A DNA stretch of 64,000 nt from Asterias amurensis (lineage: Eukaryota > Echinodermata > Asteroidea > Forcipulatida > Asteriidae), in the NCBI RefSeq assembly GCF_032118995.1, contig NC_092651.1, positions 27,742,938 to 27,806,937 of the forward strand, in the 5' to 3' direction. A program made the position numbers and the translations under genes. Below, piece by piece: positions 4,234-63,692 of the stretch (position 1 is the stretch's first letter; each line of letters starts with the position of its first letter). The notes beneath the pieces are model-generated. The model worked only from the letters and a program-made list of their open reading frames with translations. It was not told where the DNA came from and ran no database searches.

Positions 4234-7200
4234 ATGGCCGTCCAACTCGAGACTTACTTCTTCCTAACCCTTCTCACGTTCGCCATACTCCCCGGGGAAT
4301 CTGAAGCAGCTTTCGGCCAAACCATCGATGACAAAGTGACAGATTTTCGCTTCAAGAATATGGGTGAAGCCTATATATCAGAGTTTGAGATAGTCGACAG
4401 CAAAGCCAACTTCGAAGTCGTTTTGGAGGTAAGTCACTGTTATATCGGCCTTTGGGTAACAAATTGTCCTTTTACCAAAGTTAATCAATCATCAATGCAT
4501 TGCCGCGTCGACCTTGCATATCTATTATACCTTGTTAACGTCGCCTTTACCTGTAGGCAAATTGTTCACCAGTCTATACAGGAAACAAAATAGAATCATT
4601 TATGGAAATTGTGTGAGTTATTGGAAATGTAAGGCATAATAAAACGTGTTGAGCTGTTATTTTAACATTTTGCAAGTACTGTTTTCTATACAAAACCGTA
4701 AAAACGTTTTGTTTTTTGTTTGGATTGTCTTGTTGGGGTTTATGGTTTAGCATATACCCTTCCAATTGAATTTGCCGAATGTGGGGTGGGAGCAAAATAA
4801 TGAAAGTACACCAAGCGAGTCAAGTATTGGCTTATAAGATGCCATTCTTTGTAGCCAGTACTTTCACAACGTCTTTACACAAAACAGCAGCTTACTAGAT
4901 GGGCATTTGTTCCCGCAAAGTGAGTGGTAAGACCGAGTACTCTCCAACTGTTGCTTATTGGTACATTTATTACTTTCAGGACACACTAAACGAAGCCGAG
5001 TATTGGGTGGTAGACTTCGAGCCGTATAACATGAATAAGAACACTGCTGTAGATCCATACACTGGGGATATCAACCCAGAAAACACTGGTGAATGTTCTA
5101 ATGTCATGTTTGATGCACCGTACAATCAGCAAGACGTGGCTGCTGGATACTACTTCAGTGATGTCGGCAACTTCATGTAAGTTCATTCATTTTAGGATGT
5201 GTCTAGCTACATTTTTTTTAAGAGAAAAACTTGAATATACGTTTGGTACTCGCTTCTAGAAAAAAAACAATAAAAACGATTGGTTAGCCTGCAGCAGCTT
5301 TTGATTAGCTAAAGGCATTTTAAGAACATTTATTTTCAAATTAATGTGCTTACATTAAAAGATATCAGTTTTTTATGCACCGAAATTTGATTCTCAGAAA
5401 CGTTACTGTCAATAACGCTTCTCAGATTGTGTACTTCAATACGGATTTTTTTTCATGCATCGACAATATTGCTCCGGATGTTTGGCAATATCAAAAACGC
5501 AACCAACTTTTGAAATGAAATGTTGAAATATTAAATATTGGATGGAAACAATTGAACGGTTCAAAAACCAAAGCTATACTTTTCATGTAATTCCTAAAAT
5601 AAAGAGTACATCTTGGTATAAGTTTGAGCCCGAGATCTTTTTAAAGTACAACACACCGAGCCAGCAATCTTGTAAGGGCTACGTGAGCATTGCGGTAGTA
5701 ATCAGGCAATAAGGCCTTGTCACATGAACCAACTTTGACTATGACAATTGTTGAGGCAACCAACTGCAGTGCATGTAAATGGTAGACTTCAGTAGCACAT
5801 GAATACTTTTCAAACAATATCTTTACCACAACAATCCCCAATGTCTTACGAATCCCTAGTAGTGATAGAAATGACATTAATGTTTTGTAATGTCAATTCC
5901 AAAGATCTCGTAACGTGAGCATTCTAGATGACCAGAGCAATGGAGACAGTGTACATAAGCGTCTCTTCACTAGTTACGTACGAGGACAGTCCTTCACTGA
6001 TATTGACAGCGATGGTGTGAATATACAGAGACGAGATTATATCTTATCATTCAACCGTAAGAAATCATTCATCTTTAACTGTCCCTTTCACAAAAAACTT
6101 TTTTTAAATCCATTGTCACCAAATAATTTTCATTTAATGTGTTTCAATGCAAGTACCTACTATCATTTATAGACCAATTTCATTGATTGTGCTCTTCTTT
6201 GACGTCCCATTAAAAATCATTATTGGGACCTTGTTCCAATCCCTGCCATAACATTCCTTTGAATATAGGACTTGAATGTTTTTCATTCTTTGTTCTTGAA
6301 GTTTGTTAAGACCATTTGTACGTAAACGCACCCATAACTGGTTGAGCTTTTGGTTCAAATTTGACAGTATGATCCTAACTATATAAACAAATGATTAACA
6401 AGCAGACCCTTGGTTCACTCACATCAACACGTCGTTGCAAATCTTAGTCTCAAGTTTTGGGAGTTAAGCGTAGGGGTTTTTATGTATGTTTGATGCTTTT
6501 GTTATATTTTTCAACTTGCATAGAAACTGGAAAAATAAACGGTGTTTCAAATGCAATTTTTATATGTTACAATTTTCAGAAAACTTTGGGTTCTTTTTTA
6601 ACTGTACAAACACCATGGGAGAAAACATCTGGAGTTTTGCAAATACAACCGACACCATTGAGTTCCGATCCACAATTTACTTTACGAATGTTCGACCAGT
6701 GGATCCAGCAGATGGTACAAAGGTATGATGGTGACTTGTAGGAGGGATTATTCACATTATAATATAAAAAATATAAATGTATAAGAAACACAACTTTAGC
6801 ATAGGCTCCTCCTTGAATAATACTTAACAATTTAAGGGAAATTTCATTAAGACCTTTAACTTGATTTATGTTTTAGAACGTTTCTGCTGTTAAGAGTACA
6901 TTTTTAAATCATGGCTAAAACAAATAGACGGGGAAAGTTGTTTTTTTAAATAGTTTATTGACATCAAAAATGCGCTTTCTTTAACTGGAACGTTCGTGTA
7001 AAAATTCCTTTCGATTTAATATCAACCTCTAAGTAGAAAAATTAGCTAAGGACAACAACATATGCTTACCAGAATAAAGTTACCAGTTGACCCAGACTAC
7101 TGTCCATGTCAGCCGACACGCTATGATTGGTATACTACTCATTCCTGCTTAGCAAAATAAAGTTATACCAGTTGACCCAGACTACTGTCCATGTCAGCCG

Positions 7201-10200
7201 ACAAGCTATGATTGGTATACTACTCATTCCTGCTTACCAGAATAAAGTTATACCAGTTGACCCAGACTACTGTCCATGTCAGCCGACAAGCTATGATTGG
7301 TATACTACTCATTCCTGCTTACCAGAATAAAGTTACCAGTTGACCCAGACTACTGTCCATGTCAGCCGACAAGCTATGATTGGTATACTACTCATTCCTG
7401 CTTAGCAGAATAAAGTTATACCAGTTGACCCAGACTACTGTCCATGTCAGCCGACAAGCTATGATTGGTATACTACTCATTCCTGCTTACCAGAATAAAG
7501 TTATACCAGTTGACCCAGACTACTGTCCATGTCAGCCGACACGCTATGATTGGTATACTACTCATTCCTGCTTACCAGAATAAAGTTACCAGTTGACCCA
7601 GACTACTGTCCATGTCAGCCGACACGCTATGATTGGTATACTACTCATTCCTGCTTACCAGAATAAAGTTATACCAGTTGACCCAGACTACTGTCCATGT
7701 CAGCCGACACGCTATGATTGGTATACTACTCATTCCTGCTTACCAGAATAAAGTTACCAGTTGACCCAGACTACTGTCCATGTCAGCCGACAAGCTATGA
7801 TTGGTATACTACTCATTCCTGCTTACCAGAATAAAGTTATACCATATATATCAAATCCTACTTAAAGTTATACCAGTTGACCCAGACTACTGTCCATGTC
7901 AGCCGACACGCTATGATTGGTATACTACTCATTCCTGCTTACCAGAATAAAGTTACCAGTTGACCCAGACTACTGTCCATGTCAGCCGACACGCTATGAT
8001 TGGTATACTACTCATTCCTGCTTAGCAACAATTTAATAAACAATAAGTTCTGCTTAAAGTTTTGGCATCGAAGAACTCGTTGTGATTACTCCCAATTTAT
8101 ATTAGTGTAAAACTTGCATTTATCTCGACATCAAGCTTCTTTTAAAATCTTTTGATTATTCACAACAGTCCTACTATACATCATTATTTGACTAAGTTGG
8201 GGTTGCACGATATAAAAAAACAGAGCGGGATTTGAACCAACTACCTCCGGAATAACGTGCCGGCACTCTAACTGAACGACATGTTATATTTGTGGTTTGT
8301 TGCGTGGGAAGCGTTTTTGGTCAACGATATTAATTTCTCATTCTTCTTCTCTCTTACATTCAGGGTATGTCTTGGGTCACATCAAACGTGGATCTTATAT
8401 ACCGTCTAAACAGAGTTGCCATCGTTAACTTCATTGTCAGTTCCACCGCTCTGGTGAAACCAGTACTGGACTTTGTTATCATTGAACCATACTTTGATGC
8501 TCAGGTATGTAATCATCTTTGTTTTAAATCTCCAGTGTTATCGAATAAGTAAACAAAAGGCAAGAAGTCGGCTTTGTTACTAACATCTATAGATTGGATT
8601 CTAGCGTATCAAAGCTTCTTTTAACACTGGCCTGGTTGGGGAACACTGAAAAACAGAAGGGCAGCACATATACTGAATAGCTTTTCGAAAATGATAAATG
8701 TACATCTTGATATAAACTACCAGACCTATACAAACTACTAACCTGACAGATTCAGACTAGGAAACTCGAACTATTTAGAAATGTCTGCTTCCAACTCGCA
8801 ATATTATGGCAACTCTTGTTACCCCGAACCTTAAAGTCTTGGCCCAACCTCCAGTAATTATCGACCATCACTCAATCCTGTTTAACAACCTTCAAAGCTG
8901 CTGCTCTTAATGAAAAGTTCCTTAGTCCATTCAGTCAAAATTCAACCAATGTGACCCGTGCAGTCATCCAATGTCGTCTTCTAGCCTATTCACTCCACTG
9001 CAGGAGGAAAGCATCTTAACCAATTCTCCATCTCACTCTATCCTGCGCCGTCTGTTGCCAAGCAATGCCCCTGTATGTTCTTAGGTCATCTCTCCATCTT
9101 CTGTTTTGTCGCCCTCTTTTTCTTGTCCAGTTTCTTGGAGTCCAATGAATTTACAATACATGTATTTGTTAATTTGATTACAGGGAGATCCTGAGCCAAA
9201 CAGAGCGTCAATTGAGATTCAATTCCAGACCACCATAGAATCAGCCGGTGGTGAACTACTGGCACTGTACAATGCAACATCACTTCAATATATTGCACGA
9301 GACCAAGTTGCAGGTGAAAATAGCAGTCTCAATTTGGATCTGGACTATATCTATCCGGACGGCCCACAACAGTGTCAATACGTAGAGTAAGTGTTTGAAA
9401 CTGTCCTTGGTATAATCATTATTCTAGAATGAAAATAAAACAGTACCTCTGCTAAGAATAATGGTGTCCATTTAATTGTGGTATCAACTGAGGTGCCAAC
9501 TAGTTTGTTCGTTATCAGACGCATCAAGGAGCAGTTTTAGTCTGGTGCTATCTTTCGTTAGTTCGAATCCATTTGGCTCGAGAAAAATTAGAGCAATCTT
9601 TACAAAGGGTTTCAACACAATGTAGGGTTTTGAGAAATTGTGTCGACTTAAAGGACAAAAGCAAAATTGTTCTTGAAAATACAATACTTTATTATTCGAG
9701 TTTTTATGAATTCCATAACTAGTATTGAACAAAATTCATGCGAAGCGACTACTTTATTGGCGATCTTCAGAAAAAAATTATAATTATGTTTTTTTTTTTT
9801 TTTTTTTTTAAGATAACCGCAAGTTACATTTAGGAATTATTTAATATGTGTGTGTTTCTCTTATTAACTGTTGAAGACAGGGTTACAAGTCATGAGATGC
9901 GAATAACCCGAAAGCCCTGAGTCGATGGAATGACAAATGAATAAGTGTGCATACGTTGTTAATCCTTTGGGTGCTTGGCAATTGGCGTTGTGTATCAATG
10001 TTAATTTGGGATGCAGCTGCATCTACTTCTAAATTGCCTTCGTTTCAATTTTGGTATAAGACCTCGTCGTTGGAGTTATTTTGCTATAATATTATGGATT
10101 TCTCAAAATTATTGATGATGTTTAGAATAATGCTGTACTTTGACCCGTGAAACGTATCTTTACAGAACCGACAAATGCCGACAGACCTGGCTGTTCAAAT

Positions 10201-13200
10201 TCGTTATTGATCTAAACGTGGAAATCGTTGAGAATGACTTGCCTATCGATGCAACAGGTAAACGGATATTTATATCAGCTTTAAAGCATGAAACGTTTCA
10301 CAAAATAATGTACGGTTTTCAAAGGGAGTATTAATAAACCATTTTAGAACGTTTTCGAAAGAGTTGTAAAACAAAAAGGGTCTAATTAACAGGAAGATTA
10401 TACCAAGATTGCCGTTTTGTTTGAGAAACTGTGGGCTGAAAGTGGACTACTTCATGTATGCAAACAAAAAATGTCTTTGTAATAGTTATTACGTCATAAT
10501 TGCCAAATATTGGTATAGAAAGAACTAGGTAAATATAACGAACATCCTAGACTATTTCAATATTCAATTCCCCTAATATGTAATGCCCTATCGTTTACAA
10601 TTTATAAATACATCTTCGTATTCGATAGGTATTTTTTGGTAAAGTGTAGACTCTTTGAAACGTGACTTTCCGAATAGATAAAGTGCTCATTTTGTTCCAA
10701 GAAGTCTTTTTCATGAAACATTATACACAATTTATTTTGTAAAGGTACCTTTAAATTCCGGTTTGCCAAACACCAGTGTGTCGACGCGACCGAGGCCAAC
10801 CCAAGTGATTGCGTTGACCTAGGCCTTGACCCTTTCACCATCTCTCTTGAGGTCACCATACAGGTAAGGGCTAAATAGGGTACACCCATCTAAAAAGGCA
10901 GACAACGGAGCGTCGAGCTAATTAATTTTTGGTGGGACCTCAAAATATTCTTGACTAAACAAATTTGAGAGCCCAATATATAGGGTACAGTGTAAAACGG
11001 GAGTTTTTGACTTCCAACCTGGTTTTTTTTATGAGACCCTGAAATAAATGGCCCTATTTGCCGGAACATTTTTCAAGATTGATGCTCGGACGTTTGGGAA
11101 ATTAAAACTGGTTTAGGTGTACATTTGGAGAGTGAATAACTCGACGGGCACTCTGGGACTCCCATTATTAAATTGAGCCGAGGACTAAAAAAGAGTCGAT
11201 GCTTAATGTTCCCTTTACTGTAAAGAGACTTCTAAATATGATTAGTGTATTTGTTTCATATTTACCCACCCCTTACACACAACTCTCTTATTATGAAGCT
11301 AAACAAAGTTGTTTTATTGTTTAATGTAAAACTATTGACGGATTTATAGTTGTGTTTTCTTTCAATACCATCAGACGGTTGTACAAGTTGTGGACGCAAC
11401 GAAAGACAGCCCGACCGTCATATTGGTCTCCATGAGCGGGGCGAATGGAGAGGATCTACGGGGTGGTGTCGACCCTCCAACACGTGGAGTTAATCACCTT
11501 GAAGATGTCAATATCGTAGTCAAGTAAGTCACTCCTATTATTACGATAAAGCATGCGACAACTATAATGGAGTCTAACGTTAAATTTGCATCGGGGACAA
11601 AGAACATTCATTTCGGTTTTACTTATAATACATCGATGAATGCGAGCACTGTATACTCGGTACTTTCCCTAGTTCTGTGGAAACAAAATCATAGGCATAT
11701 TACTCGTGTTGGATTCGAACCCAAAACCTTTGTAGAGTCTACAGTGTGGTATTGTTGAAAGTGTGTAAAGTAATGCCTACCCAACTTGGTCAGACTAGTA
11801 AGGTGGGTTGGGATTTCAACCCCTCGTCAAGGCGAGAGGGACAGGGCACACTTTCATTAAGTTGCTAAGCAGAAAATACTGATTGACAAATGTCTTTGCT
11901 AACCAGAAATTAAGTCGGACCAGCCACAACAGTGCAAACTAAATGTAATTTGGGTTGGTAACCTGATTCTGCCAAGTTACACTCTGTTTTTAGCTCGTTT
12001 TTTGCTGAATGGCTTTATGAATTTGGGACCAGATGTGTGTATGAGTTTGTTTAGAACCGACGGGTGTGACCAGGAATCTAAATTCAGCAAACTTTGTATT
12101 TTTTTTTTAAGATACACTCCCGAGTTCCTGCGAAGTGATTTTGACCTTGATTTGACCCTCTTCATGGTGTGTAAGGAGGATAAAACAAACTCCCCAGGGG
12201 TAAGTCAAATAAAAGCAGACTGACAACGATTCAAAATTGCAGCGAAATAACCAGACAAGTTGTCAGTGCAGTAATTGGTGTCATTCTAGAAGCTCATTCT
12301 ATTGCCTTTCTTGTTGCCTTTATCCTTGCCTTTCTCGTTGCCTTTCTCGTTGCCTTTCTCGTTGCCTTTCTCGTTGCCTTTCTCGTTGCCTTTCTCGTTG
12401 CCTTTCTCGTTGCCTTTCTCGTTGCCTTTCTCGTTGCCTTTCTCGTTGCCTTTCTCGTTGCCTTTCTCGTTGCCTTTCTCGTTGCCTTTCTCATTGCCTT
12501 TCTCTTTGCCTTTCTCTTTGCCTTTCTTTTTGCCTTTCTTATTGCCTTTCTTATTGCCTTTCTTTTTGCCTTTCTTTTTGCCTTTCTTTTTGCCTTTCTT
12601 TTTGCCTTTCTTTTTGCCTTTCTTTTTGCCTTTCTTATTGCCTTTCTTTTTGCCTTTCTTTTTGCCTTTCTTATTGCCTTTCTTATTGCCTTTCTTATTG
12701 CCTTTCTTTTAGCCTTTCTTATTGCCCCACTATTGTTTCAGGGATGTCTGGATGTAGAGATCAGTAACCGTTATGTGGCCTACCAAAGTGAGTTCTTCAG
12801 ATATGCATACGTGGCAGTAGAAGGAGGAGAAGTAACATCTTACAACACAACTGATCTTGATGATGATAATACTGTACAGAGCCTCACAACCAACGCATAC
12901 GATTCGGTAAATTTACTCGGATATCTTGCTTTTCTTTGACCAGTAATTATAATAATAATCGGTTATTGTATAGCACTTTGCTCACGCGAATGGCGTCTCA
13001 TAGCGCTTCCAACAACATTACCCCTGCTGGTAATTCATTATCTTGAAAATGGTGTGCCGATCCGGCCCGTTTTACGCCTTGCTTTGTTGATTATTTGATA
13101 ATAACGAAAATAATGTACTCTGACGACTTCCTGAAACCAAGAGGCCAACTTATCACGACAAAAATTACCACAGCTAGTTGACTAATACTGTATTCAGTAG

Positions 13201-43473: not shown

Positions 43474-46400
43474 TTATGACCATGAAAATTCCCTCCCAAT
43501 TAGTGTTGAAAAATACTGATTGTGCGGTTCAAAAAATAGTTTTAATTTGCTAATTGTCCTTTCATCAGGCTTTGCTTTAGGGATGACATAAAATCGTGTA
43601 TGTGCCATACAATGACCCTTCGTACATGACATGATATTCTTAGCAGTTCCATTAAACATCTCAGGATTATAGAATGTTGTCAGATTAAGGAATCTTTCGA
43701 TTTTATTCATCTCCGAGCTTGGATTAATCCTGAGTTGGGCGTGGTCCACGAAGTGAAACTTAGCAAGTGGGAAGTATTGAAGCCAGCGTTCCATGTGCTT
43801 AGCGTAGATGCTGGTGTCTATAACGGTGTGGTTCTTGAAGACTGATCCGTTTAACGGACTGATGACTTCAGATGTGAATCGGAGCCCCTCGGTGATTGAT
43901 GTTCGGTTCTTCGTGAGACTAGCGTTAATCTTACCACCATTGCAAAGATTTACCTGTAATTATTAAAGTAGAGTGAATAACATCATTAAGTACGAGTAAA
44001 CAAGTGTAACGTATGGTGGCTGTTATAGACTGCAATATTGGCGTATTTCTTGAAAGTTCGGGATTTTGTCCCATGTTGTGATTATGATCTTTCAGCTACC
44101 TGAGCGGAATGTTTTCAACAGAAATTGTATTTTTACTTGTTTATAATGCACTTGTTCACCATTTTAATGTAATTTTGATAATTGTACACTTCTGAACTTT
44201 TCGTAATTATCGACTAAAAAATCAGGCCCCTACCTAAAGGTTTTTTGAAAAACTAAAAACACTTCTGCCGTTGAGAGCGGGCATCAAAGGACAATGCCGC
44301 TGACGTCATTTGTGGGAGTTTGCTTTGTTATACATCCACGCTGCAACAAAGCGGCTTTATCTACTTATGACGTTTTGAGAGTGATTACGTAACGGGGCTT
44401 TTCGCAAATCTCGCAGAAAAGCTCTGGACAAGGGCATACAAAATGGTTGTTTTTTTACACAATTGAAACCTATTTATAATCATATGACTCGATTTCCTTA
44501 TTCATCGAAAACATTTTAAGTGGAATTCAGCAAAGTTCACGACTTGACATTTTCGTTCAAGCAGGTCTTTAAGCGAACTGCCCTATTTCAGTAATACTGA
44601 CGTCAATTTTCATGTACCGTCGATTCTTTGTGACTTGCCCCTCACGTTCCATGCACACCTCAAGTTCTACAGATCACAACTTTTCATAATATATGCCTGC
44701 AGCCAATTATGCTTCGTTTTTGAAAGCAATGGCACCAAAGCACGTCCTCCTCGGTAAAGGGCACCCTGTGCGGAAACCGGAGCATTTCAAGAGCACGAAG
44801 GCAATGATCCAGGGGGCATAAGGGCAATGATCCAGGGGGCATGAAGGCAATGACCAGGGGCACGAAGGCAATGACCAGGGGGCATGAGGGCAATGACCAG
44901 GGGCATGAGGGCAACGACCAGGGGCATGAGGGCAATGACCAGGGGCATGAGGGCAATGACCAGGGGCATGGAGGCAATGACCAGGGGCATGAGGGCAATG
45001 ACCAGGGGCATGAGGGCAATGACCACGGGCATGAGGGCAATGACCAGGGGCATGGAGGCAATGACCAGGGGCATGAAGGCAATGACCAGGGGCATGAAGG
45101 CAATGACCAGGGGCATGAGGGCAATGACCAGGGGCATGAGGGCAATGACCAGGGGCATGAGGGCAATCACATATTTTGCCTTCATGATGTTTAAGGCTTA
45201 AACTTATAAACTTTAATATCGATGATGCGGATCATAATGAGATACCTCTGAGATATGACCGAAGTCCGATAAACTTTAATATCGATGATGTGAATCATAA
45301 TGAGATACCTCTGAGATATGACCGAAGTCCGAGATAGCTCTCTCTATAGGATCTCGAACATTAATGATGAACCTGACGTGACGTGGGAGCAACTCCCGCA
45401 TCAATCTCGGAGTTTCCGGATTGACGAAATAACGCGGAGTTTTCTCGAAGGATAGCTGATCATCGGATGCAAACGTCATCCGACTCTTGTAGTATTGTAA
45501 ACCAAGTTGGAAGTATCTGTCAAAGAAGTGTGTCTCGACGTCCTGGGCGTGTGCTATTCCTGGGTGATGCGCCATGAACCAACTCAGTAAGGTGGTGCCT
45601 GTATTCATATACGATTATTAAGTAAATAAAATACACAAAATAAAATAAAAGAAGACTTGGCGACATTTATTTTATTCTTATCTGTAAAAAAAATCTTACT
45701 TCGGCCTCTGGCTGCAATTACGTTTTTTATCAATAAACCATTTAAATCAATGAATCAATCAATCAATCAATAATATCGAAATTTTATATAGCGCACGTAT
45801 CTACCAAACAACGTACTCGAGGCGCTGAATATATACAAACTTTCAGAAAGATAGGTTATTGAAGTTGTAAATTCCGATACCCATTTATGTAGCACCTGCC
45901 AGGAACACCGGGCGATTCCCTTCTCTTTTCGATAAGTGCACTCGGTTCTTTTACATGCGTTACACAACACATGGGACCAACGGCTTTACGTCCCATCCGA
46001 AGGACGAAGTAATGGTTAAGTTTTTTGCTTAAGGACACAAGTGACACGGCTGTGATTCGAACCCACACTCTGCTGATCAGAAACACCAGAGTTTGAGTCC
46101 AGTGGGCTTGGCCGTTCGGCCACGACACTTCCATCAGTCAGTCAGCTCGTAAATGACAGGGGAAAAAATAGGTCCACTTCTCAACAGTCTCACGCCACTT
46201 TCTTTAGTACAGCCAATCAGCTTAATTAAGATTGGATATTTATTCCTTGTCAGCATTTATAGCCATAAGGTCATTTCAGAATAGTTTTTAAGGAGATGGC
46301 TATCTTACCTGACTTCTTGACCCCAATGTTGATGACGTCAGGTAACCTTTGTCTGTAACCTCTTTGCGTTAAGTATTCAGTAATTCTTAATCTAGTTAGT

Positions 46401-55298: not shown

Positions 55299-58200
55299 TT
55301 AATGGAAGAATATTGAGAAGGGATCTTGGTTATCCAGATAAGCTTTGTGTCGTAGGACGTCTTTCTTACTGATAATCCCAAGTAATCTCCTGCAAAAATA
55401 ACAACAGATGACAATAGAGTTAATGCAACATATTGAGCCCTTGCACTGAGGTCACACATGGCTAACTGTCAGGAGTTAAAGTGATCTTGTAAAACAACCA
55501 CACTTTGCATAAAGTATTCACTACACATTAACACTCAAGGAATCTGACACCCAAAATGGGGCAACCAAGATATATTGTAGTCAAGGTGCTATAGGTGAAT
55601 TGGACCACAATTAAGCTAACCACCAATAGAATTGATTTATTTAAAGAGTACATTGCAATTGAAGAAACATATTCCAGTAAAGTGTGTCACTATTGTACTT
55701 ACCCATTATGTGTAACGAGGCATGTTCTTATACCCAGTTTAACAAACATGTCCACAACGATACTCATAGGCGTCTGGTCTGTTATAGTTACCGGACTCTG
55801 TGGAGGACAATGTCAATTATGAGTTATCAATAATATACTTAAATATTGCACACATAGAGTCTTGTCACTTTATTAAAGAATTAATGTCACAAACCATCCT
55901 TTCATTGGCTTTTTACTAACTGACCACAGCTTCATTCAAATGGCTTTTAAATGATAGTTAAAGGAACACGTTGCTTTGGATCGGTCGAGTTGGTCTATAA
56001 AAAGCGTTTGTAACCGTTTGTTATGAAATGTATATGGTTAGAAAGATGTTTTAATAGTAGAATACAGTGATCTACACAAATATGCCTCGAAATTGCAAGG
56101 TTTTCCTTTTATCTCGCTGACTAACACGGCCATTTATGGGAGTCAAATTTTTGACTCCCATAAATGGCCGACCGTGTTAGTTCGCATAATAAAAGGAAAA
56201 CCACGCAATTTCGAGGCAAATTTGTGTGGATCATTATATTCTACTTTTAAATTATCTATCTAACCATTTGCATTTAATAACAAACGGTTTCAAACGCTTT
56301 TCAACGACCAACTTGTCCGATCCAAGGCAACACGTTCCTTTAAACAATGTTGAGGCAAACAGTACACAGTCAACCCTCCCACTGTCTGACCATTCAACAT
56401 CATCCACTATTGGTTTTGAATGATAGATAAACCATACTGACCTGCAATACAAAGATAGTTACGTATCAATGCACAAGTTTCATGATTTAAGAAGCACAAA
56501 GAATAAGATGTTACAGAACATAGAGAAGACATGGAACTACTTACTGCATCTAAGATGTTGACTAGGCTGAGGTGTGGTGGTATTCCTGGTACAGGAAATT
56601 TAGGTACTTGGGAAGTGAAGTAAACTTTAGACTGACTCACTGCTTCACTCTTATTCTTCCTGGCTTGTTCTAGATAGATAATAAACACAAATTCTTATTT
56701 AGCGCATTTCACAATAACCGTATCAATGCGTCATCGGGCCAATAACATCCCTTTAATCTTTCTCAGCTCCCTGGGGAGTATACAGCCCTGAGCTGCCGTG
56801 GCGCTCCAAAGGTTTTTTGATACACAATATCAACCTCTACCCTCGCAGGTACCCATTTATACCCCTGGGTGAAGAGAAGCAGTTATAGTAAAGTATCTTG
56901 CTCAAGGACACAAGTGTCAAGACCGGGATTCGAACCAACACTCTTGACTTAATCACCAGAACTTGAATTCGATGCTCTTTAGCACTCGACAAACCTTTTT
57001 GATTGCTCTAGAAGAGATCATGTGGCCATGTTTAAACTTGTGATATAAACCTTAAACATATGCATGCCCCACAACCTTTTGAGTCATGCTAATTTTACAT
57101 GTACCGCAATCAATACATACCAATAATCAATGTACAATTCATTAGATTGCCTGCGTCCGCACAGCTAATTAGTTTCACAAGCATTTTGAGCCTTTATGAA
57201 ATGGAGCCTGACAACATGACAGGAATAACTAATTTACAGAAAATGTACATTTAATTACAAAAAGGGCATTTATGAATGGGAATAAAAGAGTAGTGACTCA
57301 GTCTATAACATTTGTTTAAAACCTCACACGGCCTACCTGTTTAAAGTCACCTGGAAGTGGTATTTTTTCAAAATAAAGTTTTTGTCACTAATATATGTGT
57401 TTTGATGAGTGGAATGTGAATAAACAATTGTTTTATTGTTCATAAGCATATACTCTTATGTTTGAAAGAAAAAAAAATCTATTTCCAGGTGACTTTAAGG
57501 ACCCTCAGGACTTTGTCCTACTATGTTATTCATTTATTCATAACAACAAAGAGTGTTTTAACATTCCGATTGGTTGAAGAGAGTCTCAATGAGAGGAGAC
57601 AGGTAGATGGTTACTTACTCAATGCATGTATTAGCTCTCTTCTATAAACCACTCCTACAAGACGTTGTGAATCCTTAGATATAATCACCGGGTATGTATT
57701 GAAGAGAGTCTCAGTGAGAGGAGACAGGTAGATGGTTACTTACTCAATGCATGTATTAGCTCTCTTCTATAAACCACTCCCACAAGACGTTGTAAATCCT
57801 TAGATATAATCACCGGGTATGTATTGAAGAGAGTCTCAGTGAGAGGAGACAGGTAGATGGTTACTTACTCAATGCATGTATTAGCTCTCTTCTATAAACC
57901 ACTCCCACAAGACGTTGTGAATCCTTAGATATAATCACTGGGTATGTATTGAAGAGAGTCTCAGTGAGAGGAGACAGGTAGATGGTTACTTACTCAATGC
58001 ATGTATTAGCTCTCTTCTATAAACCACTCCCACAAGACGTTGTGAATCCTTAGATATAATCACTGGGTATGTATTGAAGAGAGTCTCAGTGAGAGGAGAC
58101 AGGTAGATGGTTACTTACTCAATGCATGTATTAGCTCTCTTCTATAAACCACTCCTACAAGACGTTGTGAATCCTTAGATATAATCACTGGGTATGTATT

Positions 58201-61200
58201 GAAGAGAGTCTCAGTGAGAGGAGACAGGTAGATGGTTACTTACTCAATGCATGTATTAGCTCTCTTCTATAAACCACTCCCACAAGACGTTGTGAATCCT
58301 TAGATATAATCACTGGGTATGTATTGAAGAGAGTCTCAGTGAGAGGAGACAGGTAGATGGTTACTTACTCAATGCATGTATTAGCTCTCTTCTATAAACC
58401 ACTCCCACAAGACGTTGTGAATCCTTAGATATAATCACCGGGTATGTATTGAAGAGAGTCTCAGTGAGAGGAGACAGGTAGATGGTTACTTACTCAATGC
58501 ATGTATTAGCTCTCTTCTATAAACCACTCCCACAAGACGTTGTGAATCCTTAGATATAATCACCGGGTATGTATTGAAGAGAGTCTCAGTGAGAGGAGAC
58601 AGGTAGATGGTTACTTACTCAATGCATGTATTAGCTCTCTTCTATAAACCACTCCCACAAGACGTTGTGAATCCTTGGATATAATAACCGGGTATGTATT
58701 GAAGAGAGTCTCAGTGAGAGGAGACAGGTAGATGGTTACTTACTCAATGCATGTATTAGCTCTCTTCTATAAACCACTCCTACAAGACGTTGTGAATCCT
58801 TAGATATAATCACTGGGTATGTATTGAAGAGAGTCTCAATGAGAGGAGACAGGTAGATGGTTACTTACTCAATGCATGTATTAGCTCTCTTCTATAAACC
58901 ACTCCCACAAGACGTTGTAAATCCTTAGATATAATCACTGGGTATGTATTGAAGAGAGTCTCAATGAGAGGAGACAGGTAGATGGTTACTTACTCAATGC
59001 ATGTATTAGCTCTCTTCTATAAACCACTCCTACAAGACGTTGTGAATCCTTAGATATAATCACTGGGTATGTATTGAAGAGAGTCTCAGTGACAGGAGAC
59101 AGGTAGATGGTTACTTACTCAATGCATGTATTAGCTCTCTTCTATAAACCACTCCTACAAGACGTTGTGAATCCTTAGATATAATCACTGGGTATGTATT
59201 GAAGAGAGTCTCAGTGAGAGGAGACAGGTAGATGGTTACTTACTCAATGCATGTATTAGCTCTCTTCTATAAACCACTCCCACAAGACGTTGTGAATCCT
59301 TAGATATAATCACTGGGTATGTATTGAAGAGAGTCTCAATGAGAGGAGACAGGTAGATGGTTACTTACTCAATGCATGTATTAGCTCTCTTCTATAAACC
59401 ACTCCTACAAGACGTTGTGAATCCTTAGATATAATCACCGGGTATGTATTGAAGAGAGTCTCAGTGACAGGAGACAGGTAGATGGTTACTTACTCAATGC
59501 ATGTATTAGCTCTCTTCTATAAACCACTCCCACAAGACGTTGTGAATCCTTAGATATAATCACTGGGTATGTATTGAAGAGAGTCTCAGTGAGAGGAGAC
59601 AGGTAGATGGTTACTTACTCAATGCATGTATTAGCTCTCTTCTATAAACCACTCCTACAAGACGTTGTGAATCCTTAGATATAATCACTGGGTATGTATT
59701 GAAGAGAGTCTCAGTGAGAGGAGACAGGTAGATGGTTACTTACTCAATGCATGTATTAGCTCTCTTCTATAAACCACTCCCACAAGACGTTGTAAATCCT
59801 TAGATATAATCACCGGGTATGTATTGAAGAGAGTCTCAGTGAGAGGAGACAGGTAGATGGTTACTTACTCAATGCATGTATTAGCTCTCTTCTATAAACC
59901 ACTCCTACAAGACGTTGTGAATCCTTAGATATAATCACTGGGTATGTATTGAAGAGAGTCTCAATGAGAGGAGACAGGTAGATGGTTACTTACTCAATGC
60001 ATGTATTAGCTCTTATCTATAAACCACTCCTACAAGACGTTGTGAATCCTTAGATATAATCACTGGGTATGTATTGAAGAGAGTCTCAATGAGAGGAGAC
60101 AGGTAGATGGTTACTTACTCAATGCATGTATTAGCTCTCTTCTATAAACCACTCCCACAAGACGTTGTGAATCCTTAGATATAATCACTGGGTATGTATT
60201 GAAGAGAGTCTCAGTGAGAGGAGACAGGTAGATGGTTACTTACTCAATGCATGTATTAGCTCTCTTCTATAAACCACTCCCACAAGACGTTGTAAATCCT
60301 TAGATATAATCACTGGGTATGTATTGAAGAGAGTCTCAATGAGAGGAGACAGGTAGATGGTTACTTACTCAATGCATGTATTAGCTCTCTTCTATAAACC
60401 ACTCCTACAAGACGTTGTGAATCCTTAGATATAATCACTGGGTATGTATTGAAGAGAGTCTCAGTGAGAGGAGACAGGTAGATGGTTACTTACTCAATGC
60501 ATGTATTAGCTCTCTTCTATAAACCACTCCCACAAGACGTTGTAAATCCTTAGATATAATCACTGGGTATGTATTGAAGAGAGTCTCAATGAGAGGAGAC
60601 AGGTAGATGGTTACTTACTCAATGCATGTATTAGCTCTCTTCTATAAACCACTCCTACAAGACGTTGTGAATCCTTAGATATAATCACTGGGTATGTATT
60701 GAAGAGAGTCTCAGTGACAGGAGACAGGTAGATGGTTACTTACTCAATGCATGTATTAGCTCTCTTCTATAAACCACTCCAACAAGACGTTGTGAATCCT
60801 TAGATATAATCACCGGGTATGTATTGAAGAGAGTCTCAGTGACAGGAGACAGGTAGATGGTTACTTACTCAATGCATGTATTAGCTCTCTTCTATAAACC
60901 ACTCCCACAAGACGTTGTGAATCCTTAGATATAATCACTGGGTATGTATTGAAGAGAGTCTCAGTGAGAGGAGACAGGTAGATGGTTACTTACTCAATGC
61001 ATGTATTAGCTCTCTTCTATAAACCACTCCTACAAGACGTTGTGAATCCTTAGATATAATCACTGGGTATGTATTGAAGAGAGTCTCAATGAGAGGAGAC
61101 AGGTAGATGGTTACTTACTCAATGCATGTATTAGCTCTCTTCTATAAACCACTCCTACAAGACGTTGTGAATCCTTAGATATAATCACCGGGTATGTATT

Positions 61201-63692
61201 GAAGAGAGTCTCAGTGACAGGAGACAGGTAGATGGTTACTTACTCAATGCATGTATTAGCTCTCTTCTATAAACCACTCCTACAAGACGTTGTGAATCCT
61301 TAGATATAATCACTGGGTATGTATTGAAGAGAGTCTCAATGAGAGGAGACAGGTAGATGGTTACTTACTCAATGCATGTATTAGCTCTCTTCTATAAACC
61401 ACTCCTACAAGACGTTGTGAATCCTTAGATATAATCACTGGGTATGTATTGAAGAGAGTCTCAATGAGAGGAGACAGGTAGATGGTTACTTACTCAATGC
61501 ATGTATTAGCTCTCTTCTATAAACCACTCCCACAAGACGTTGTGAATCCTTAGATATAATCACTGGGTATGTATTGAAGAGAGTCTCAGTGACAGGAGAC
61601 AGGTAGATGGTTACTTACTCAATGCATGTATTAGCTCTCTTCTATAAACCACTCCTACAAGACGTTGTGAATCCTTAGATATAATCACTGGGTATGTATT
61701 GAAGAGAGTCTCAGTGAGAGGAGACAGGTAGATGGTTACTTACTCAATGCATGTATTAGCTCTCTTCTATAAACCACTCCCACAAGACGTTGTGAATCCT
61801 TAGATATAATAACCGGGTATGTATTGAAGAGAGTCTCAGTGGTCAGGTTTTCTGAAATAGAAAACATGTTTAGAAGAAATTGAAAATCTTTATGGTTAAG
61901 GAGGTAATGAATGGTAGTTGTAGCACACAGATTGAAAAATTACAACAGTACATAAACTACTTCAGCAACTTCAAAACAAATTTCTTCAGTAGCGTGGTTC
62001 ACAAAAGAAACCATCGAACATTCTCAGAACCAACACCACTAAAAAGAGATTTTCACATGGTGGTACGACAAACCTCACCTAATCTAAGACATACTTTTTA
62101 AAATTTCTAACAACTTGTTAGAGACAAATGATTTGAAATGTCTTACCCAATTCTTCCACTGTCATTGAGTCCATTGTGATAGTGAAAAGTGGTGGGTCAT
62201 TACGCCTGTATCAGACAAAATATCAAGTATTTTACAATGTACATAAGTCATCCTACACACTGTTCATGAGCAGTACAAACAGCCTACTGAAGTCTATGGC
62301 ATAGGCATGCTAAGGTATTCATTTCATCTATTCTGGTTGAGAAGCCAAAAGACTCTCAGTAAACATGGTAAAGCAGATTTAACCACAGTACTAGCCAAGA
62401 ACCCAATGGAGAGAAAACAAGGAAGACAGTTTATTTTTTAGATGTGGGAGGAAAAACCCCAGAGATCCTTTTTTTCCAGGGAAAACCCATGCCGTCAGGC
62501 AGGGACTGAACACCCAATCCACGTAGTGCCCCATGTGACTGTCTGCTTACCTTATAAATATATTGTATCTCAATTGTGCCTTAAAGAAAGTCCAAACGGT
62601 AAGGCTCTTTGTAAAAATATGATACCATGAATATCTTAATTTTATTTTTAAAAATGTCTTATTATTTTCATAACTAAGAAAACCAACTCTTACCTTGGGC
62701 TCATTACATCCGATGCTAACGTTGTGTGCATAAATTCACGCTTGCTGTCTAAGAACGGGTAACCATTCAAATGTATGTGACCATCATAGCTGAGTACATG
62801 TAGCAGTTAAAGATTTTTAAAACAACTGATTTGCAGTATACCAATATAATAGAAATATCTTATGTTGGTGCAATTTATTTCTCTCAAAACATTTACCAAC
62901 TTCTCAAGAAAAACTTAAAAGCCAGAAACATATTGAGCTAATTTATATTTGGGTTTTTTACCAAATTTTTTTGGGGAAAGAGTGAATTTATTTCCTTCTA
63001 GTTTTGAATGAAGAGGTTTTTTTCCACAAAACTCGGGAAAGTACTGAGTATACAGTGCTAAATACACATTGGTCGAAGGGTAAAAGCAAACTATATTTTC
63101 TTTATACTCGATGCAAAACTAACATGTATCGTTGCAGTACCCGCTGCCAGCACATAGGATTCAAACTGCATCTAGCCATCGGGCTCTATGGTCACTGGTC
63201 TAGCGGTAAGACGCCACTGGTCTAGTGGTAAGACGTCACTGGTCTAGTGGTAAGACGTCACTGGTCTAGTGGTAAGACGCCACTGGTCTAGTGGTAAGAC
63301 GTCACTGGTCTAGTGGTAAGACGTCACTGGTCTAGTGGTAAGACGTCACTGGTCTAGCAATGCAAAGGTTGTGTGTTCAAATCCAACTTAAGTGATTTGT
63401 GTGGAGATTTGTTTTTCGCAGAACTCGGGCAAGTTAACAGTGTTTAATACACATGGATGTACGTAAAAACAAATTGAATTGTTTCATACAGTAACTTTAT
63501 TTTGACTGACAATTTTGTGCAAACTAAATGCTCAATAAATGATATGCCTGTCAGACTCAAAAAGTTCCAAAGGATACATTCCATCCTTGCCAAATGCATC
63601 AGCAACCCATTTACTGACCATACAGGCAATCATTAATGGTACAATGTACGTCAGACCTCCAGTTAGCTCAAACATGATCACAACAAGGGAAA
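55299..63692 (-). CDS. CLCN3: ClC-3/4/5-type chloride/proton exchanger, C-terminal 228 residues (5' part outside window)
   Basis: Seven exons in transcript order: 63692-63578, 62789-62694, 62205-62147, 61851-61744, 56669-56545, 55797-55703, 55389-55299. All phases agree. The first visible exon encodes [20 protein letters not shown], the last membrane helices, and its junction with the next gives KDGIYDGH, whose Tyr is probably the inner-gate residue of ClC proteins. CBS domain 1 spans the next exons ([33 protein letters not shown]). CBS domain 2 is [15 protein letters not shown] to [18 protein letters not shown]. The protein ends [10 protein letters not shown], close to the vertebrate ClC-3/5 end NQDP.SIMFN. 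The family exchanges chloride for protons in endosomes and lysosomes; the CBS pair binds nucleotides. The exon at 61744-61851 is followed in its intron by 33 further tandem copies of its own 3' end and donor. ClC-3, -4 and -5 cannot be separated from this part alone. Confidence 0.92.
55958..56343. mobile_element. Palindromic MITE with TTAAAGGAACACGTTGC ends, copy 2
   Basis: TTAAAGGAACACGTTGC at the left and CAACACGTTCCTTTAA at the right are inverted and TTAA-flanked. The centre is a perfect GGGAGTCAAATTTTTGACTCCC-type palindrome, as in the copy at 24616-25005. It lies in a ClC intron. Confidence 0.85.
56688..56990 (-). mobile_element. tRNA-derived SINE, inverted
   Basis: The plus strand shows ACACAAGTGTCAAGACCGGG then ATTCGAACCAACACTCTTGA, the complement of a B box and SINE head. 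The opposite end reads TTATTTAGCGCATTTCACAA. It is related to but distinct from the copy at 45755-46132. It lies in the ClC intron right upstream, in transcript order, of the exon at 56545-56669. Confidence 0.65.
57341..57498. mobile_element. Solo TTAAAGTCACCTGGAA MITE (158 bp)
   Basis: Both ends carry TTAAAGTCACCTGGAA or its complement. The whole sequence matches the outer part of the element at 27441-28025 in inverse orientation, without the nested insertion. It lies about 80 bases left of the 125-bp array. Confidence 0.8.
57576..61850 (-). repeat. 34-copy, 125-bp tandem array made from a ClC exon end plus its splice donor
   Basis: The start word GAAGAGAGTCTCA recurs at 57576, 57701, 57826 and every 125 bases to 61826, so 34 units occupy exactly 4250 bases with no indel. 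On the minus strand each unit holds 91 bases of CBS-domain coding sequence (ACTCTCTTCAATACATACCC to CATGCATTGA), the donor GTAAGT, and 34 bases of intron including a short pyrimidine tract ending CACTGAG. The rightmost copy is continuous with the true exon acceptor (TTTCAG at 61852-61857). Identity between units is very high. Recurrent variants are C/T in CACTCC(C/T)ACAAG, G/A in TTGT(G/A)AATCC, C/T in ATCAC(C/T)GGG, A/G in TCTCA(A/G)TGA and G/C in TGA(G/C)AGG. Confidence 0.97.
63128..63475 (+). mobile_element. tRNA-derived SINE with eightfold amplified A-box segment
   Basis: The SINE begins ATCGTTGCAGTACCCGCTGC and CATAGGATTCAAACTGCATC, as at 32128. The A-box-like CACTGGTCTAGTGGTAAGAC is repeated eight times in 22-bp steps (about 63191-63358), with GT or GC at each junction. 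A B-box-like GTTCAAATCC and the body then follow. It lies in a ClC intron. These are not tandem tRNA genes: no unit can form a cloverleaf. Confidence 0.8.

Follow-up and report, generated by a model that had tools for sequence, protein, structure and literature searches.

A 34-unit minisatellite across an exon-intron border in a predicted chloride/proton exchanger gene of the sea star Asterias amurensis

How is a 5' splice site chosen when the end of an exon, its donor and the start of the following intron recur in 34 tandem copies? This question is raised by a locus in Asterias amurensis, which we analysed within a stretch of 64,000 nucleotides (hereafter, the window). In amphioxus, minisatellites over exon-intron borders have been named "mirages" (PMC3087553, PMC3902484). 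We propose, with considerable confidence, that the Asterias array is an exon-intron-boundary minisatellite of this type, expanded in tandem and homogenised, in which the most upstream donor is spliced and the other copies are intronic.

Structure of the array and its host gene

TRF recovered 34.1 copies of a 125-bp unit with 98% matches, 0% indels and a score of 8158, and the spacing from unit to unit is exactly 125 in 33 of 33 cases. The donor 14-mer TTGA/GTAAGTAACC, in which the slash marks the exon end, was counted 34 times on the minus strand, once per array unit (donor G at 61743, 61618 and so on to 57618), and the 5' splice site is identical in every unit (34/34). The repeat count and the donor motif thus bear out the original prediction that an exon end and donor of a CLC-3-type gene had been amplified into 34 intragenic copies with an exact period of 125. 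Its details need revision: the unit had been divided into 91 exonic and 34 intronic bases, whereas comparison of the units assigns 97 nt, ending at the donor, to exon 4 and 28 nt to intron 4, and the predicted span of 57576-61850 is slightly off at its borders, as the array runs from 57574 to 61841 by TRF and the exon reaches 61851. As in a mirage, the unit holds exon together with adjoining intron sequence, and unit 1 is a real exon end (Table 1).

A 161-base query over unit 1, searched against the whole genome (491,506,623 bases in 23 contigs), returned at least 34 matches, such counts being lower bounds, and 34 of 34 lie in the array. A search for degenerate copies elsewhere in the window, with matches at 57000-62000 dropped, gave short matches only (best E 0.19), and the flanks of the array (56670-57573 and 61842-62200) match the unit exactly over 12 bases at most.

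Other repeats are present in the window. A second minisatellite, at 7063-8024, consists by TRF of an 85-bp unit in 9.3 copies (7063-7844) and an 83-bp form in 1.9 copies (7871-8024). It has a GTAAG-like motif on the minus strand and was considered as another repeated donor, but we set it aside as apparently intronic in a plus-strand neighbour gene; plus-strand stretches that look exon-like by eye lie on either side of it, at about 6600-6740 and 8365-8520, and no open stretch found in 7000-8100 exceeds 67 codons. A 12-bp repeat (TTGCCTTTCTTG; 12302-12726, 35 copies) has several frames open and may be coding or simple sequence; across 12200-12800 a plus-strand frame runs without a stop for 199 codons. 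A 21-bp repeat (44793-45167, 17.6 copies) reads GHEGNDQ in frame on the plus strand, other frames being open too, and is followed by two copies of a 63-bp unit at 45206-45332.

The host gene lies on the minus strand, and its seven exons in the window, joined through donor 1, give 228 residues that are the exact C-terminus of P0115, the A. amurensis H(+)/Cl(-) exchange transporter 5-like isoform X4 (828 aa; representative of 6 clustered sequences). The remaining exons of P0115 were found in order upstream, to about 8 kb past the window, with residues 1-14 unmatched. Among the best 120 of 1024 matches in a protein search with the C-terminal tail, P0115 came first (100% identical) and Patiria miniata next (87%); the exon-4 segment is single in the Patiria miniata protein. 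Compared with solved structures, the C-terminal exon product matches CLC-3 (E 1.8e-70) and CLC-5 (1.6e-63), with CLC-7 far weaker (0.00013), and its CBS domains are recognised by Pfam. Judged by these similarities, the host is a predicted CLC-3/4/5-type Cl-/H+ exchanger gene. Its five other complete introns in the window measure 788, 488, 295, 747 and 313 nt, and intron 1 (window numbering) contains a 22-bp repeat of 7.6 copies at 63191-63357. In a moth, Phthorimaea operculella, a deposited CLC model (P0117) shows an exon-like peptide three times before CBS1 and repeated CBS1-exon peptides, one of them apparently frame-shifted, possibly through tandem exon duplication or model error.

Table 1. 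Features of the exchanger gene and its array, in window coordinates (a slash marks an exon-intron junction; exons carry window numbering)
Feature	Position	Strand	Basis
Exon 1 (more exons upstream beyond window)	63578..63692	minus	joined translation
Exon 2 (...MSPR)	62694..62789	minus	joined translation
Exon 3	62147..62205	minus	joined translation
Exon-4 authentic acceptor TTTCTATTTCAG, outside repeat unit	61852..61863	minus	sequence and gene model
Exon 4, 108 nt, phase 1-1, CBS1 coding; last 97 nt in array unit 1	61744..61851	minus	joined translation = end of P0115
Unit 1 authentic donor TGA/GTAAGT (six intronic bases)	61738..61743	minus	motif count and gene model
Minisatellite, 34.1 x 125 bp	57574..61841	minus	TRF and unit comparison
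33 further identical donors of units 2-34, 125-nt spacing	57613..61618	minus	motif count
Units 2-34, of which 27 bear CAG at unit positions 26-28, AG at 60-61 or both	57591..61715	minus	unit comparison
Intron 4, 5074 nt, 82% array	56670..61743	minus	gene model
Exon 5 (...NILDA)	56545..56669	minus	joined translation
Exon 6 (CBS2, ...THNG)	55703..55797	minus	joined translation
Exon 7, C-terminus	55299..55389	minus	joined translation

Choice among identical donors

Joined in silico to exon 5 (at 56669), donor 1 keeps the frame open to the native protein end, and each of donors 2-34 gives one and the same truncated product, ...ELIHALSK-stop, without CBS2 (33/33). Reading past a donor adds two codons and then a stop (AGT AAG TAA). 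Both results agree with the original prediction, which had held that the first donor alone keeps the frame and that a stop follows two codons beyond it. It had also treated a unit length that is not a multiple of three as a difficulty for the transcript, a point that becomes irrelevant if copies 2-34 are intronic. The annotated P0115 protein fits the use of donor 1, and all 34 donors are intact. Because exon 4 is phase 1-1, its skipping would also keep the frame. A transcript whose stop lies more than 50 nt upstream of the next junction is expected to undergo nonsense-mediated decay; in the truncated message the stop would be much farther than this from the junction, which would make it an expected target.

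Splice sites were scored with a weight matrix and frequency tables. By this measure donor 1 is middling (outside the array, 16 of 297 GTs reach its score), and since it is identical to the other 33, position must decide which donor is chosen. The exon-4 acceptor scores 8.67, matched by 4 of the 225 other AGs outside the array, and the best AG inside a unit scores 3.78, a value reached by 27 of those 225. The six true acceptors of the exchanger gene include two weak ones (2.70 and 3.34) beside four at 7.4-10.5. Set against the weak pair, AGs in the array score 3.78 and 3.32; some in-unit AGs therefore exceed the lowest true scores, so that copies 2-34 do contain possible acceptors.

The favoured history is as follows. 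A 125-bp segment across the junction of exon 4 with intron 4 would have been tandemly duplicated, reaching 34 copies, and unequal crossing-over or gene conversion may have held the units alike. With the true acceptor outside the unit, copies 2-34 would offer donors that have no strong acceptor to match. The acceptor of exon 4 would then be paired by the spliceosome with the closest donor, which is also the most upstream one, to give the 108-nt exon, and copies 2-34 would be removed within the long intron. On this analysis the array most likely leaves normal splicing intact, and it is likeliest to be a neutral or nearly neutral border minisatellite whose first donor is used.

Variation among units and alternative readings

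The 34 units vary at 9 of 125 positions and comprise 15 distinct sequences. All four allele combinations occur at 7 of 15 pairs of informative sites. When unit distances at lags 1-19 were compared with 5000 shuffles, similarity between neighbouring units did not exceed chance and no higher-order repeat emerged, the lowest P being 0.09 (lag 11); at lag 15 the units are more unlike than in 98% of shuffles. The lack of neighbour similarity and the pairs with four combinations are what repeated unequal exchange or conversion would produce. In this one species, the units combine about 98% identity with shuffled variants, the pattern of concerted evolution looked for in a mirage, and copy number in the array may vary. 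Unit 1 carries a rare variant, T at position 30, in common with unit 26 alone, from which it differs at one base; units 27 and 28 are as close to unit 1 as unit 26 is, yet without this T. Synonymous changes make up 5 of 8 exon-derived variants (P 0.03-0.05 by the mutation model) or, counted otherwise, 5 of 9 (P 0.05-0.09), in a post hoc test on tiny numbers. This mild synonymous excess is not predicted by neutral intronic copies, but it is too little to claim selection.

Variation of this kind bears on whether the array is real. In so homogeneous an array the copy number might be inflated by assembly, or the array itself might be false; we consider this extremely unlikely, given that the units differ by scattered variants (15 distinct sequences among 34) and that the assembly probably comes from HiFi fragments of about 15 kb, which are longer than the array. 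An A. amurensis assembly of 491.53 Mb in 22 chromosomes, which we infer to be the one analysed here, used PacBio HiFi sequencing of fragments about 15 kb long (PMC10625585), and a second published assembly likewise used HiFi reads (PMC11090083). If the array is real, its extra donors might still have a function: they could bind U1 and tune the inclusion of exon 4, or yield a truncated transporter (...IHALSK) that lacks CBS2. Such roles would draw on the 34 identical donors, on the single truncated frame that all 33 downstream donors share, and on the phase of exon 4, which makes skipping frame-neutral. They also have parallels in reports of TERT splicing controlled by a 38-bp intronic repeat at 9 or more copies (PMC3948165) and of downstream cryptic donor use once the first donor of factor VII is mutated (PMC6627357). 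We nevertheless regard these roles as highly improbable. RNA folding is no better than that of shuffles (z 0.23 for one unit, 1.19 for the exon region), values that also leave RNA structure unsupported as a cause of donor masking. From the position of its stop, the truncated message would be expected to decay. In the reports on mirages and on the normal factor VII gene cited here, donor use of this sort is not seen (PMC3087553, PMC3902484, PMC6627357). The original prediction had listed a neutral repeat among its options, and this option is supported; for the splicing-rate device and the source of truncated channels that it also listed, we found no positive evidence here, the truncated frame being the result of any downstream donor.

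Alternatively, the downstream units themselves may enter the message as in-frame cassettes of 69 or 36 nt that lengthen CBS1 of the exchanger. An A at position 27 in 24 of 34 units creates CAG/TG, from which 69 nt (23 codons) lead in the right phase to the donor of that unit, and an A at position 60 in 16 of 34 units creates TGTAG/GA, 36 nt (12 codons) before the donor and also in phase. Of the 33 downstream units, 27 have one or both of these AGs (26 without a stop), and neither is present in unit 1, so that the real exon would not be split; this absence, however, is not special to unit 1, being shared with six other units. Both cassettes are phase 1-1, and a single insertion keeps the native C-terminus in 23 of 24 cases for the 69-nt form and 15 of 16 for the 36-nt form, unit 15 having a stop; still, the chance that two AGs would agree in frame is about one in nine. 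The AG of the 36-nt cassette, at 3.78, stands above two of the gene's six true acceptors, and splicing between neighbours would leave introns of 89 nt, whereas the 69-nt form requires introns of 56 nt. By score both AGs nevertheless belong to the background, as 65 of 225 other AGs are as high for the 69-nt cassette and 27 of 225 for the 36-nt cassette. Each of the 34 units also has a third AG, at position 6 (score up to 3.32), whose use would produce frame-breaking cassettes of 91 nt (units 2-4 tested). A search of 1116 candidates with the tandem peptide of the 69-nt form found one protein, the single-copy P0115, matched over 49% of the query. Amphioxus authors do propose that mirage units may become exons (PMC3087553). 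Even so, inclusion of such cassettes seems very unlikely to us, and we give correspondingly little credence to the array as a reservoir of at most 26 usable in-frame mini-exons, arising from two AG-creating variants absent in the working exon. If this were true, variable inclusion would lengthen CBS1 in steps of 23 or 12 residues, and the locus would show a minisatellite in the course of turning into new exons and introns.

Relation to known border repeats

The preferred reading, a border minisatellite spliced at its first donor, has clear antecedents, and the original prediction that the structure is nearly without precedent does not stand beside amphioxus mirages, factor VII donors and human border repeats (PMC3087553, PMC3902484, PMC6627357, PMC2812944). 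Amphioxus mirages are reported to leave regular splicing undisturbed and to be variable in length, and it has been proposed that new introns arise from them (PMC3087553, PMC3902484), although their authors allow for cryptic use of mirage sites (PMC3087553). Genes with such mirages include Adh3, BflGb6, BflGb9, PGBD5 and TnC (PMC3087553, PMC3902484). Like the Asterias array, amphioxus mirages are border-spanning tandem repeats that include donor-side copies, as in BflGb9, where the 3' boundary of exon 2 is duplicated, and their units (10-160 bp in Adh3 and the globins, 60 and 108 bp in PGBD5) compare with the 125 bp found here. The clusters whose sizes are given in these reports are small, with 6 and 3 units in BflGb6, in contrast to 34 units and 4.3 kb in an echinoderm transporter gene.

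In intron 7 of the human factor VII gene (F7), the most upstream of the donors in 37-bp repeats is normally the only one used, and mutation or weakening of this first donor leads to exon skipping and to the use of downstream cryptic donors (PMC6627357). In Asterias the frame-keeping donor 1 also stands first in its array, and its exclusive use would correspond to the factor VII pattern; the units differ in length (37 bp in factor VII versus 125 bp). The factor VII repeat has fewer copies than the Asterias array. A survey of human segmentally duplicated genes reports that border tandem repeats can create new introns and splice forms, with 27 intron modifications; these repeats, found through comparison of paralogues, average four 30-bp units, and one morpheus repeat has 39 copies (PMC2812944). 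A known case of tandem duplication across an intron-exon boundary is a single duplication that yielded a new intron, in contrast to the Asterias array, which has no demonstrated new intron (PMC4974935).

The Asterias array is a mirage-type repeat, and what is new is its size and its echinoderm host. The titles and abstract openings of the literature that we searched report no echinoderm mirage, which is no proof of absence; the present case points to the existence of mirages outside amphioxus. For the transporter itself, the consequences are probably minor. With 34 identical natural donors at one exon, the array provides a clean test of position-only choice among equal 5' splice sites, as well as a test of how a border minisatellite might feed the birth of introns or exons.
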